From NCBI GenBank assembly GCA_021325635.1, contig JAJPGV010000036.1:1-64000 (forward strand): a DNA stretch of 64,000 nt, in the 5' to 3' direction. Numbering within the stretch: the first letter of the stretch is position 1; every line of letters starts with the position of its first letter. This DNA is from Chloroflexota bacterium (lineage in GTDB: Bacteria > Chloroflexota > JAJPGV01). The position numbers and the translations under genes are program-made. This document shows positions 17,872 through 48,485 of this stretch, piece after piece. Below the pieces are notes generated by a model. That model did not search any database. It worked only from the letters and a program-made list of their open reading frames with translations, and had not been told where the DNA came from.

Positions 17872-18322
17872 AGGCGCAAGGCGCAAGGCGCAAGGCGCAA
17901 GGCGCAAGGCGCAAGGCGCAAGGCGCGAGGCGCGAGGCGCGAGGCGCTAGGCGCGAGGCGCGAGGCGCAAGGCGCAAGGCGCAAGGCGCAAGGCGCGAGG
18001 CGCGAGGCGCGAGGCGCGAGGCGCGAGGCGCGAGGCGTAAGGCGCGAGGCGCAAGGCGCGAGGCGCGAGGCGCGAGGCGCGAGGCGCGAGGCGCGAGGCG
18101 CGAGGCGCGAGGCGCGAGGCGCGAGGCGCTAGGCGCGAGGCGCGAGGCGCAAGGCGCAAGGGCAAGGCGCGAGGCGCAAGGCGCAAGGCGCAAGGCGCAA
18201 GGCGCTGGTCGCAAGGCGTAAGGCGCTGATCGCAAGGCGCAAGGCGTAAGGCGCTGGTCGCAAGGCGTAAGGCGCTGATCGCAAGGCGTAAGGCGCGAAG
18301 CGCGAGGCGCGAGGCGTCGGTC
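17872..18322. repeat. heptanucleotide tandem array (GGCGCAA/GGCGCGA)
   Basis: About 64 units of 7 bp fill 450 bp between comB and aspS. Units vary at the last two positions (GGCGCAA, GGCGCGA, GGCGCTA, GGCGTAA). From 18200 on, longer mosaic units containing GCTGGTCGCAAGGC and GCTGATCGCAAGGC appear. Because 7 is not a multiple of 3, all frames stay open and give Arg-Leu-Ala-Pro-rich pseudo-proteins; none is a gene. The array resembles cyanobacterial STRR arrays in unit length only. Confidence 0.97.
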
Positions 18323-18346
18323 GTTAGTCGCTAGACTAAGTAGACT

Positions 18347-18364
18347 CCTGGCGACCACGCCAGG
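18347..18364. repeat. central hairpin between the inverted heptamer arrays
   Basis: CCTGGC at 18347-18352 pairs with GCCAGG at 18359-18364. It lies in the 70-bp non-repetitive centre that separates the two array arms. It may be a terminator remnant or the tip of the larger fold. Confidence 0.5.
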
Positions 18365-18392
18365 CCTTTCAACTTCAACTACGGCGGTAACG

Positions 18393-18509
18393 ATCACGCC
18401 TTGCGACCATCGACCAACGCCTTACGCCTTGCGACCAGCGCCTTGCGCCTTGCGACCAGCGCCTTGCGCCTTGCGCCTAACGCATCGCGCCTAACGCCTC
18501 ACGCCTGCC
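18393..18509. repeat. inverted copy of the heptamer array, abutting aspS
   Basis: Units CGCCTTG, CGCCTAA and CGACCAG are reverse complements of the first array. Positions 18418-18452 are the exact reverse complement of 18191-18225 over 35 bp. The array ends 2 nt before the aspS start codon, so the aspS leader consists of repeat sequence. Confidence 0.95.
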
Positions 18510-35194: not shown

Positions 35195-36787
35195 GTGGCA
35201 CTTGAGCTGAGAGAGCCGGGTTCCGATTCCGTCGCGTCTGCCGCGACGCGCGACATCACGAGTCTGCCCGCGGCCATTAACTGGCTGCGCTCGCAGGGAC
35301 TCCTGCTGGAGACCGACACCGAGGTCAGCGGCGACCTGGAGTTGACTGGCGTCCAGAAGTCGCTCGACGGCAGCTACCCCATCCTCTTCAACAACGTCAA
35401 GGGGTATCCGCACGCCCGCGCCGTCACCAACCTGTTCGCCAACTACGAGGTGCTCAACAAGATGTTCGGCTGGGACGGCCCGACCGACCGTACCAGGAAG
35501 CTGGCCCATGCCCTCACCCATCCCCTCCCGCCGGTCGAGGTATCCGGCGCCGACGCGCCCTGCCAGCAGGAGGTCATCACCGACGACCTCGACGTGAACA
35601 AGTACATCATGACCATCCGCCACACCCACCTCGAGTCCGAAATGACCATCGGCAGCGGCAACAGCGTGGTCGTGGGCAAGTACTTCCACGGTGGTTCGCA
35701 CATCGGCTACAACCGCATGTGCTTCCGCTGGGGCAACGTCGGCACCTTCCAGTCCGCCCCCGGGGCCCACATGTGGCAGATCATCTCGGAGCACTACCAC
35801 GACGACGAGCCCATTCCGCTGACGATGTGCTTTGGCCTTCCGCCGGCCTGCACCCTTATCGCCGGCGGCGGCTTCGACTACGTCGTCCTGCCGCGCGGCG
35901 CTGATGAGCTCGGCGCTGCCGGCGCCGTCCAGGGCGCCCCGGTGCGCATCGTCAAGGCCCGCACGGTCGACGCCTACGCCGTGGCCGACTGCGAGTACGT
36001 CCTCGAGGGCTACCTGCACCCGCGCGACAAGCGCTACGAGACCGCTGAGTCCGAGGCGGCCGGCAAGCAGGGTAAGTTCTTCTTCCATCCGGAGTGGGCC
36101 GGCTACATGGGCAAGGCCTACAAGGCCCCGACCTTCCACGTAACCGCCATCACCATGCGCAAGCGCTCCGAGAAGCCGATCATCTTCCCGCTGGGCGTGC
36201 ACACCGCCGACGACAGCGCCATCGACACCACCGTGCGTGAGGCCGCCATCTACGAGCTGTGCGAGCGCCTGCAGCCCGGCATCGTCCAGGACGTCAACAT
36301 CCCCTACGCTATGACCGACTGGGGTGGCTGCATCATCCAGGTCAAGAAGCGGAACAAGATCGAGGATGGCTGGCAGCGCAACTTCCTGGCCGCGGCCCTC
36401 GCCTGCAGCCAGGGCATGCGCCTGGCGATCGCCGTCGACACCGACATCGACATGTACAGCATGGACGACATCATCTGGGCGCTGACCACTCGGGTAAACC
36501 CGCACACCGACATCCTGAACCCGATTCCCGGCGGCATCGGCCAGACCTTCCAGCCGGCCGAGCGCATGACCGCCGGCGACGCCGAGTGGACCGCGGCCAA
36601 CACCCGCTTCGAGGGCGGTATGGGCATCGACGCCACCATGCCCTTCGGCTACGAGCAGGACTTCCACCGGCCGGTATACCCTGTCGATCGGGTCGACCTC
36701 AAGAAGTGGTTCAGCGACGCCGACATCGTGAAGGGCAAGTCGATCATGCAGGGCTGGGTGCAGTCGCTGGCCCGCACCGGACGCTAA
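35195..36787 (+). CDS. divergent UbiD-family protein lacking one catalytic Glu
   Basis: A 530-residue UbiD-like protein. The family uses prenylated FMN to (de)carboxylate aromatic or alpha,beta-unsaturated acids. The three other UbiD proteins here carry GTYR and EGPFGEWTGYY. In this protein the Arg is kept (GYNRM, Arg174), but the second motif reads KFFFHPEWAGY: the Glu equivalent to Fdc1 E282 is present (Glu300), and the one equivalent to E277 is Phe295. It is also longer than usual. GTG 35195 has GGGAGGT upstream. It heads a plus-strand series with the CoA-transferase, cupin and EutA-like genes. Confidence 0.85.
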   Translation: MALELREPGSDSVASAATRDITSLPAAINWLRSQGLLLETDTEVSGDLELTGVQKSLDGSYPILFNNVKGYPHARAVTNLFANYEVLNKMFGWDGPTDRTRKLAHALTHPLPPVEVSGADAPCQQEVITDDLDVNKYIMTIRHTHLESEMTIGSGNSVVVGKYFHGGSHIGYNRMCFRWGNVGTFQSAPGAHMWQIISEHYHDDEPIPLTMCFGLPPACTLIAGGGFDYVVLPRGADELGAAGAVQGAPVRIVKARTVDAYAVADCEYVLEGYLHPRDKRYETAESEAAGKQGKFFFHPEWAGYMGKAYKAPTFHVTAITMRKRSEKPIIFPLGVHTADDSAIDTTVREAAIYELCERLQPGIVQDVNIPYAMTDWGGCIIQVKKRNKIEDGWQRNFLAAALACSQGMRLAIAVDTDIDMYSMDDIIWALTTRVNPHTDILNPIPGGIGQTFQPAERMTAGDAEWTAANTRFEGGMGIDATMPFGYEQDFHRPVYPVDRVDLKKWFSDADIVKGKSIMQGWVQSLARTGR

Positions 36788-36864
36788 ACCGGCGGTACCA
36801 CTCGCACGTGTCATGCAGCGCCGGAGCTCGTCCTCCGTTCGGTATCGTCTCGCGGTCGTGTAGC

Positions 36865-36883
36865 GCGGGGGCTTGGCCCCCGC
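36865..36883 (+). terminator. hairpin after the UbiD-like gene
   Basis: GCGGGGGC and GCCCCCGC pair around TTG. No T-run follows, so it may attenuate rather than stop transcription into the CoA-transferase gene. Confidence 0.4.
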
Positions 36884-36930
36884 CCACCGTCCGTGCCCGG
36901 TAACCTCCCGGCACTTCGGCGTCTATCCGC

Positions 36931-39435
36931 ATGACCGATGCAATCGATCTGCCCCTGGCTGGCGTGCGCGTCCTCGACCTGGCCGACGACTCCGGCTTCA
37001 TGTGCGGGCGCACGCTGGCGGACCTGGGCGCCGACGTCATCAAAGTCGAGCCACCAAGCGGGGATCCGGGCCGCCGCGTGCCGCCCTTTGCCGGCGACGA
37101 TCCGCATGTCGAGCGCAGCCTGGCCTGGCTGGCCGGCAACGTCAACAAGCGCGGCGTCACCTGCGACCTCGAGACCGAGGCCGGCCGCGAGCTGTTCGGC
37201 CGCCTGGTCCAGCAGGCCGACGTGGTCGTCGAGAGCTTCACGCCCGGCTACCTGGACGGCCTGGGCCTAGGCTACGAGGAGCTGGCAGCCATCAACCCGG
37301 CCATCATCATGACCAGCATCACCCCCTTCGGGGTGGATGGTCCCGTGGCCACGAGCCCGGCCTCCGACCTCGAAGTGACGGCGGCCAGTGGCAGCCTGTG
37401 GCTGGCCGGCGATCCGCAGGGCCCACCAGTGCGCACCACGCTGCCGCAGGCGCCCTCCTGGGCCGGCATGTCGGCCGCCGCGGGCACCCTCATGGCGGTA
37501 CTGGCTCGCAACCTCAATGGCCGCGGCCAGCACGTGGACGTTTCCTCGCAGGCAGCCATGATCGCCGCCATCTCCCACGCGCCCATGTTCTGGGACCTCC
37601 TCAAGGAGGAGCAGAACCGATCCGGCCCGTACCTCACCGGCCGCAGCGTGACGGGCGCCAAATTCCGCATGATCTGGCCCTGCCGGGATGGTTACGTGGC
37701 GTTTGCCCTCTACGGCGGGCCGGCCGGACGGGCCACCAGCAAGGCGCTCATGGCCTGGATGGAGGAGAAGGGCGGCGCCCCCGACGCGGTCCGGGAGGTC
37801 AACTGGGACGAGTTCGACGTAGCCACCTGCACGCCCGCGACCGTCGAGCGCATCGAGGCGGCCATCGGCCCGTTCCTGCTCACCCTGTCGCGGGCCGAGT
37901 TCTTCCAGGGCGTGATTGCCCGCAACATGCTGGGCTATCCCGTGGCCACCGTCGAGGACATCTGGAAAGACGAGCAGCTCATATCGCGGGGCATGCACCA
38001 GCAGGTGGACCCTCCGTGGGGCGGCCCTAGCCTGCCCTTTCCCGGCACCTTCGTCCTGTTCGACGGCCAGCGCCCACCGCTGCGCCGCACCGCTCCCAAG
38101 CTGGGCGAGCACAACGCCGAGGTCTTCGGCGAGCTCGCCACCTCGACTGCCAAGTCGTCCAACCACACCCGCGCCTCCGAACAGCTCGGCACCCGGCACT
38201 CGGGACTCGGCGGTCCATCGGCACTCGGCACTTCCCCGCGGCTGCGCGTGGTGGAATTCGGCGGCTTTGCCGCGGGGCCGGTCGTGGGGAAGCACCTGGC
38301 CAGCTATGGCGCTGAAGTCATCCGCGTGGAATCCAAGCGTGCGCTGGACGGCTTCCGCACTCACTACCCACCCTTCAAAGAGAACGTACCCGGCATCGAG
38401 CGCGCGGGCATCTTCAGCTTCTTCAACGACGGCAAGCACAGCGTCACCCTCAACCTCAAGACCGACCGCGGCAAGGAGCTGGCGCGGGCCCTGGTGAGCC
38501 AAGCCGACGTGGTGGTGGAGAACTTCACACCCGGCACCATCAGCCGGTTGGGTCTCGGCTACGACGTGCTTTCCGCGGCCAACCCAGGACTGGTCATGCT
38601 CAGCACCTGCAACCAGGGGCAGACTGGTCCGCACGCGGGACATCCCGGCTTTGGCAGCCACCTCACCTCGCTGGCAGGGTTCACCAACCTGCTGGGCTAC
38701 GCCGGCGAGACGCCGGTGCTGCTGTACGGTCCGTATATTGACTACATCGCCGTCGGCTACGGCTTGGTGGCTGTGCTAGCAGCGCTCGTCCGCCGCGGAC
38801 GCACCGGCCAAGGCAGCTACATCGACCTCTCGCAATACGAGACCGGGGTGCAGTTCATGACCCCGGCGCTGCTCGACTACTTCGTGAACGGCCGCATCCC
38901 CGCGCGCCAGGGTAATCGCCATCCCACCTGGGCTCCGCACGGCGTGTTTCCCTGCGCCGGCGAGGACCGCTGGTGCGCCCTCAGCGTGGCCGGCGACGGT
39001 GAGTGGCTGCGCTTCGTAGAGGCGCTCGATCATCCTGAATGGGGCGTCGATCCCGCCTTTGCCACCCAGGCGGGCCGCAAAGCCGAAGAAGATCGCCTGG
39101 AGACGCTCATCGCCGGGTGGACTCGGCAGCACAGCCGCGAGGACGTGGTCGAGCGGCTGCGCAAGCGCCGGCTGCGTGTCTACCCGGTGAACTCCATGGC
39201 CGACCTCTACTCCGATACCCAGCTCACCCACCGCGGGCACTGGGTGCCGGTGGAGCATCCAGTCCAGGGGCCCATCCACGCCCAGGCCCCACCCTTCCGC
39301 CTGCTCGGCACGCCCCCCAAGCTGGGGCGGCCGGCGCCTTGCCTCGGCGCGGACAACGGCTACGTGCTGGGAGAGATACTTGGCTTGAGCAGCGGCGACA
39401 TCGAAGATCTGGCCCACCAGGGGGTCCTGGATTGA
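36931..39435 (+). CDS. didomain family III CoA-transferase (CaiB/BaiF, two fused copies)
   Basis: At 834 residues this is twice the normal family III length. Residues 1-405 (LAGVRVLDLADDSGFMCGRT, GADVIKVEPPSGDPGR) and residues 430-834 (LRVVEFGGFAAGPVVGKHLA, GAEVIRVESKRA) are each a complete CaiB-like domain. By-eye alignment with formyl-CoA transferase puts Ala in the N half (VDVSSQAAM) and Glu in the C half (IDLSQYETG) at the catalytic Asp169 position, so the halves may differ in activity. The joining residues (SEQLGTRHSGLGG...ALGT) are encoded by CTCGGCA-type heptamer repeats. The cupin gene follows after 27 nt. Confidence 0.9.
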   Translation: MTDAIDLPLAGVRVLDLADDSGFMCGRTLADLGADVIKVEPPSGDPGRRVPPFAGDDPHVERSLAWLAGNVNKRGVTCDLETEAGRELFGRLVQQADVVVESFTPGYLDGLGLGYEELAAINPAIIMTSITPFGVDGPVATSPASDLEVTAASGSLWLAGDPQGPPVRTTLPQAPSWAGMSAAAGTLMAVLARNLNGRGQHVDVSSQAAMIAAISHAPMFWDLLKEEQNRSGPYLTGRSVTGAKFRMIWPCRDGYVAFALYGGPAGRATSKALMAWMEEKGGAPDAVREVNWDEFDVATCTPATVERIEAAIGPFLLTLSRAEFFQGVIARNMLGYPVATVEDIWKDEQLISRGMHQQVDPPWGGPSLPFPGTFVLFDGQRPPLRRTAPKLGEHNAEVFGELATSTAKSSNHTRASEQLGTRHSGLGGPSALGTSPRLRVVEFGGFAAGPVVGKHLASYGAEVIRVESKRALDGFRTHYPPFKENVPGIERAGIFSFFNDGKHSVTLNLKTDRGKELARALVSQADVVVENFTPGTISRLGLGYDVLSAANPGLVMLSTCNQGQTGPHAGHPGFGSHLTSLAGFTNLLGYAGETPVLLYGPYIDYIAVGYGLVAVLAALVRRGRTGQGSYIDLSQYETGVQFMTPALLDYFVNGRIPARQGNRHPTWAPHGVFPCAGEDRWCALSVAGDGEWLRFVEALDHPEWGVDPAFATQAGRKAEEDRLETLIAGWTRQHSREDVVERLRKRRLRVYPVNSMADLYSDTQLTHRGHWVPVEHPVQGPIHAQAPPFRLLGTPPKLGRPAPCLGADNGYVLGEILGLSSGDIEDLAHQGVLD
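38184..38234. repeat. CTCGGCA heptamer array inside the CoA-transferase gene
   Basis: About seven degenerate units (CTCGGCA, CCCGGCA, CTCGGGA, CTCGGCG) encode the interdomain linker in frame. The same unit, starting with the same AGCTCGGCAC context, occurs at 48469 in a non-coding gap. Confidence 0.85.
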
Positions 39436-48373: not shown

Positions 48374-48485
48374 GAGGGTTGAGGGTCGAGGGTTCAGGGT
48401 CGAGGGTCGAGGATTTAGGGTCGTCCCAGCCCCCTCGGCACTTGGCACTCGGCACTCGGCACTCTAGCCAGCTCGGCACTCTAGC
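48374..48485. repeat. two adjacent heptamer arrays (GGGTCGA and CTCGGCA)
   Basis: Units GGGTTGA, GGGTCGA and GGGTTCA run from 48374 to about 48423. A second array of CTCGGCA, CTTGGCA and CTCTAG units runs from 48434 to 48485. They fill the gap between the convergent aldolase and permease genes, and the permease stop codon lies inside the second array. Confidence 0.93.

Follow-up and report, generated by a model that had tools for sequence, protein, structure and literature searches.

A heptamer repeat array in the linker of a fused class III CoA-transferase from a Chloroflexota bacterium

The origin of the linker in a fused protein is usually invisible. Here, the linker is recognisable as a member of its own genome's repeat family: within a 64,000-nt window of a Chloroflexota genome (contig JAJPGV010000036.1, positions 1–64,000), two CoA-transferase domains are encoded in one frame and joined across an array of 7-nt repeats, at a locus known from one MAG-like assembly. 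How did such a repeat come to join two genes and to be translated? A sequence-only reading of the locus proposed that a spacer between two genes had filled with repeats, lost its stop and become coding. We consider it probable that the fusion is lineage-specific and that a heptamer array took over the two-gene junction and now encodes much of the disordered linker.

The fused gene and its relatives

The fused gene occupies positions 36,931–39,435 (+ strand) as a single open frame of 834 codons. The PF02515 profile matches its product in two stretches (E = 1.6e-184; 613.6 bits against a cut-off of 23.3), assigning it to CoA-transferase family III, and its orthologues are mostly separate genes, in agreement with the earlier description of a fusion of two CaiB-like domains. 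The N-terminal domain (36,931–38,142, + strand; residues 1–404) ends in GEHNAEVFGEL and has 9fn0_A as its best PDB match, while that of the C-terminal domain (38,233–39,432, + strand; residues 435–834) is 9fn0_B. When each half was tested on both chains, the N domain gave E values of 5.5e-63 for chain A and 3.2e-24 for chain B, and the C domain gave 2.7e-61 for chain B and 2.6e-35 for chain A. Asp146, the candidate catalytic residue, aligns with the PGSD of 9fn0_A, and an Asp is kept in the N domain throughout the clade described below. The equivalent position in the C domain is His577 here and His, Gln or Met in the clade orthologues; the class III catalytic Asp is present in one half only, the N-terminal one.

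Judged by these chain matches and this residue pattern, the fused halves correspond to the two subunits, one catalytic and one not, of a benzylsuccinate-CoA-transferase-like class III heterodimer, and would represent an obligate catalytic/non-catalytic pair, a natural target for fusion. The benzylsuccinate CoA-transferase heterodimer (PDB 9fn0) likewise has one subunit with the Asp and one without; however, it consists of two chains, whereas here there is one polypeptide, linked to a UbiD-type gene. This upstream partner, a UbiD-family decarboxylase gene (35,195–36,787, + strand) kept as a neighbour in relatives, points to a carboxylated aromatic or similar acid, other than benzylsuccinate/succinyl-CoA, as the candidate substrate. 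AlphaFold, run on the fused ORF with an input alignment of 22 proteins (window plus locus), gave a mean pLDDT of 90.8 and a pTM of 0.93, with pLDDT below 50 at residues 408–436 (which include the array), 237–241 and 1–3 only. The predicted architecture is that of two ordered domains joined by a disordered linker.

In a maximum-likelihood tree of the C domain, the window protein falls within a 15-member clade (support 100/100) comprising 13 separate gene pairs, the window fusion and a fusion in genome G298. With 13 of the 15 members separate, the relatives do not all share the fusion with an unrelated, conserved linker, the pattern that the sequence-only reading had itself named as contrary to its proposal. 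A gene of the same UbiD family adjoins the CoA-transferase genes in 12 of the 14 other members (57–76% identity), which supports the orthology of these loci. On comparative sequence evidence, two separate genes are the ancestral state and the fusion is a derived, lineage-specific one, since the clade orthologues are mostly separate. To this extent the sequence-only reading stood; its intermediate, a repeat-filled gap between the two CoA-transferase genes that subsequently lost its stop, was found in none of the clade orthologues. The nearest separate pair, in genome G232, has 62–64% identity to the window, and in G232 and most other separate pairs the genes are joined by a 4-nt overlap (ATGA or GTGA). 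In the collections searched, this genome alone represents the class, and thus the fusion event itself was not seen.

Two other junctions deserve mention. The G298 fusion (L048), the second in the clade, is independent; its Ala-rich linker is unrelated, and its nearest kin are separate-gene relatives of its family. In another relative (locus L006, G055:C271), the space separating the two CoA-transferase genes contains a different repeat, an inverted CCTGAGCGAAGCGAAGGATCT ... AGATCCTTCGG element.

The junction array and its repeat family

The first part of the linker (STAKSSNHTRASEQ; 38,143–38,184, + strand) replaces the usual C-terminal tail of the upstream gene, for example ELGLGAAELAATRAGGAS in L064, and these residues resemble neither the repeat nor a recognisable gene tail. 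They are followed by a degenerate CTCGGCA heptamer array (38,185–38,233, + strand), which lies in frame at residues about 419–434 of 834, is translated as LGTRHSGLGGPSALGT(S) and is predicted to be disordered. Read by eye, the 49-nt array runs CTCGGCA CCCGGCA CTCGGGA CTCGGCG gtcc ATCGGCA CTCGGCA CTT, that is, six units with at most one mismatch each, two of them exact, and one 4-nt interruption. TRF reports the same tract (38,185–38,232) with period 7, consensus CTCGGCA, 7.3 copies, 70% matches, 13% indels and a score of 47.

Period-7 rows with a TRF score of at least 47 numbered two in 645 kb of coding sequence from the same genome, as called by a small codon-usage caller rather than by standard annotation, and six codon-shuffled counterparts gave 0. 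Real runs of CTCGGCA-type units (at least 4 in 51 nt) occurred in this coding sequence only in the fused gene and in CobN; a gene on contig C56 (314,387–317,197) that was also flagged by unit count has scattered GCCGAG-like codons without periodicity and was rejected. Used as a BLAST query on the genome, the junction matched about 20 array sites, with a best E of 9e-11 (85% over 54 nt). The array is thus confirmed as real and beyond chance expectation, as a degenerate rather than a clean repeat, and the earlier statement that the linker is built from CTCGGCA-type units is borne out by TRF, shuffling and BLAST alike.

The same statement had extended to a unit and flank common to the linker and the gap at 48,469. 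The unit is indeed common to both: an intergenic CTCGGCA array of the same family lies at 48,434–48,464 (+ strand), on the right side of a convergent gap. AGCTCGGCAC does recur at 48,470–48,479, but as a unit with its flanking bases it carries no independent weight. Separately, nine bases of the array's upstream flank are alike in the array at C22:27497 (CGCCTCCGA). SALGT in the array resembles SALAGT, with which the G232 gene (L051) starts; this was set aside as coincidence, since the repeated LGTRHSA contains SALGT.

The genome (4.64 Mb in 63 contigs) contains dozens of heptamer arrays with the units CTCGGCA, AGGCGCA, GAGGGTC/T, AGTGAAG and others. In an 824-kb sample, consisting of two contigs and the window and not picked for arrays, TRF gave 18 rows with a period of 7, 14 or 28, and 17 of them lay in gaps, which make up about 22% of the sequence; the neighbouring periods 6, 8 and 9 gave one row each. 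The exact triple unit CTCGGCACTCGGCACTCGGCA was present in one of 400 phylum genomes sampled, namely this one, and in 0 of the 399 others. Both units found in genes, CTCGGCA and CTCGGCC, are stop-free in all six frames, whereas one strand of GAGGGTT and of AGTGAAG contains stops. The arrays are also polar: those at the left border of a gap show their purine-rich strand and those at the right their pyrimidine-rich strand, whatever the gene direction; 58 of 68 arrays obey this rule (Fisher p = 4e-9).

Arrays of this family also occur in frame within single genes. In the Lhr helicase (L139, 1526 aa), an array at L139 8212–8327 (C23:38712–38827) encodes residues about 936–974 (RVPRAEGRGPRADGRG...), part of an insert of about 44 aa that lies between conserved blocks and is missing from 12 of 12 relatives aligned. 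CobN (L155, 1271 aa) carries an array at L155 4023–4119 (C50:92323–92419; residues about 185–217), in a variable loop that is shorter in relatives. A third such gene encodes a YfhO-like membrane protein (L145, 760 aa); its array lies at L145 4704–4737 (C28:4704–4737), within residues about 180–240, and the segment between its flanking blocks measures about 60 aa versus 8–13 aa in relatives. In L141, the match was to a called gene with an ordinary 21-nt repeat. Because these three genes carry in-frame arrays away from any gene boundary, arrays can, to judge from the sequences, enter coding DNA directly, with no need for a spacer stage.

Origin of the fusion

The reading-frame register of the junction bears on the part that the array may have played in the fusion. 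In 10 of 10 separate pairs measured, the spacing between the conserved blocks of the two genes is 2 mod 3. The window spacing is 120 nt (0 mod 3), and subtraction of the 49-nt array leaves 71 nt (2 mod 3). To bring the two genes into one frame, the junction had to change in length by a net +1 mod 3, and 1, 4 or 7 heptamers give this class, as does the 49-nt array; such a match has a one-in-three prior by chance. However, excision of 38,185–38,233 regains neither a stop for the upstream gene nor a start codon for the downstream gene near the junction. A clean insertion in its simplest form was rejected on this ground, as excision restores the register without a stop or start; either the array did not enter an intact overlap cleanly or the site has degraded since. 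Because array excision returns neither signal, we conclude that the overlap was overwritten or decayed. The earlier claim that the spacer lost its stop likewise cannot be read from the sequence, as no upstream stop reappears once the array is taken out. We also considered and rejected translation of the C domain on its own: with the array excised, RVVEF has no start codon upstream of it, and the internal GTGs are not preceded by a clear ribosome-binding site.

Based on these observations, we propose a probable route. The ancestral genes overlapped, the downstream one being read in the −1 register. A member of the genome's 7-nt array family would then have come to occupy the site where they met, and the +1 mod 3 length of the array, whose unit is stop-free in every frame, would have allowed reading from the first gene into the second. 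We infer that the arrival of the array caused the fusion, that the loss of the stop and start dates from the same moment, and that the fused enzyme is made and working.

Another order of events is a serious possibility, in which the overlapping pair first drifted apart, the resulting spacer filled with heptamers, like many other gaps in this genome, and the first stop was then lost so that the spacer became coding. We give this order a considerable minority share; it differs from the main explanation in order only, and the two weights are not additive. The strong preference of heptamer arrays for gaps in the 824-kb sample fits it, as do the Y-rich orientation of the junction array and its position abutting the C domain, which are those of arrays at right-hand gene borders. 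Moreover, the adjacent UbiD/fusion gap (36,788–36,930, + strand) is expanded in this genome only: the UbiD/CoA-transferase junction measures 167 nt from block to block here versus 5–43 nt in 12 relatives, suggesting that the operon loosened in this lineage and left room for a spacer stage. No relative carries a repeat-filled spacer, however, and single genes in this genome have acquired arrays without any spacer.

It is unlikely that the fusion is older and began with a commonplace GC-rich linker of low complexity, in or over which the array grew later. Fused two-domain homologues with ordinary Ala/Pro-rich linkers are common outside the clade (L049, L050, L052–L056, L061, L066 and L071) and could be taken to speak for such a history, but they lie outside a 100/100 clade that is itself mostly unfused, and insertion of the array would still be required.

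Assembly or sequencing error could in principle fuse two real genes, as miscounting 7-base units by one produces a frameshift, and heptamer arrays stand at the start or end of several contigs (C24, C33, C34, C49, C58 and C59, with arrays of the AGGCGCA/CGCCTTG type, which seem to break the assembly). We regard an artefact as very unlikely at this site, since the array is short (49 nt), degenerate and fits within one read, so that it should assemble, and since no stop of the first domain or start of the second is found near the junction even without the array. That a GC-rich linker merely resembles the heptamer by chance, as its degeneracy might suggest, is hardly credible given the 0 hits in the shuffled sequence and the BLAST matches to the genome's other arrays.

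Implications and known repeat systems

Under the proposed takeover of the junction by an array, the case shows junk-like repeats becoming part of a protein. As the unit CTCGGCA is stop-free in every frame and each unit steps the frame by one base, we tentatively entertain a wider reading, in which heptamer arrays might be a recurrent source of new protein sequence in this lineage, both as disordered loops in single genes and through one-step welding of overlapping genes in the −1 register. With the ancestral pair and its register known and three further genes carrying inserts, the path from intergenic repeat to protein is testable. Intergenic heptamer arrays, heptamers in ORFs and in-frame repeats are already known from the parts of the literature covered here; array-mediated gene fusion appears to be new, as a heptamer array acting as both weld and linker was not found in those parts of the work on heptamer and in-ORF repeats.

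Among the closest parallels are the heptamers of Xanthomonas and Nostoc (GGGAATC and GGGGA(C/T)T), which the covered part of PMC4692102 describes as dispersed, mostly intergenic and rare in ORFs, with the G-rich strand just after the neighbouring ORF in either direction. The arrays studied here are similarly of period 7, mainly intergenic, dispersed and polar to flanking genes, and thus reproduce both the dispersal and the border polarity. The units differ in that those of Xanthomonas and Nostoc contain quadruplex-forming GGG runs, whereas CTCGGCA/TGCCGAG has GG runs only, short of the GGG expected of G-quadruplexes; the same part of that report makes no mention of a gene-fusion linker.

TAACTGA repeats of Beggiatoaceae, cyanobacteria and Bacteroidetes are, in the sections of PMC4679880 covered, likewise heptamers that lie mostly in gaps, with ten sets inside ORFs in translatable orientation and, in an RNA polymerase beta-prime-like protein, a variable loop that holds three units. 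Unlike CTCGGCA, they contain stops in the forward orientation, form short sets and lie mostly just upstream of start codons, and those sections describe no fusion. Tandem repeats of Borgs are also common to gaps and ORFs and form disordered segments in the latter; however, according to the portion of PMC9879509 covered, in-ORF units are all divisible by three and mostly perfect, a rule with which the degenerate 7-nt unit here contrasts.

Rickettsia palindromic elements, as summarised in part of a review (PMC10969869, citing Ogata 2000, 2002), are genome-wide repeats of about 150 bp that encode a conserved peptide and lie, like the arrays here, in frame in unrelated conserved genes. They are palindromic, whereas the present arrays are not of the palindrome/MITE kind: they run head-to-tail on one strand, and both polarities are paired only across gaps. 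Such inverted array pairs occur in many gaps, for example at 17,872–18,506 and 48,374–48,464 of the window. Within the first of these, AGGCGCA is repeated 64 times (17,872–18,316), which makes this the longest of the arrays seen in the window; an inverted CGCCTTG array lies 80 nt beyond it in the same divergent gap.
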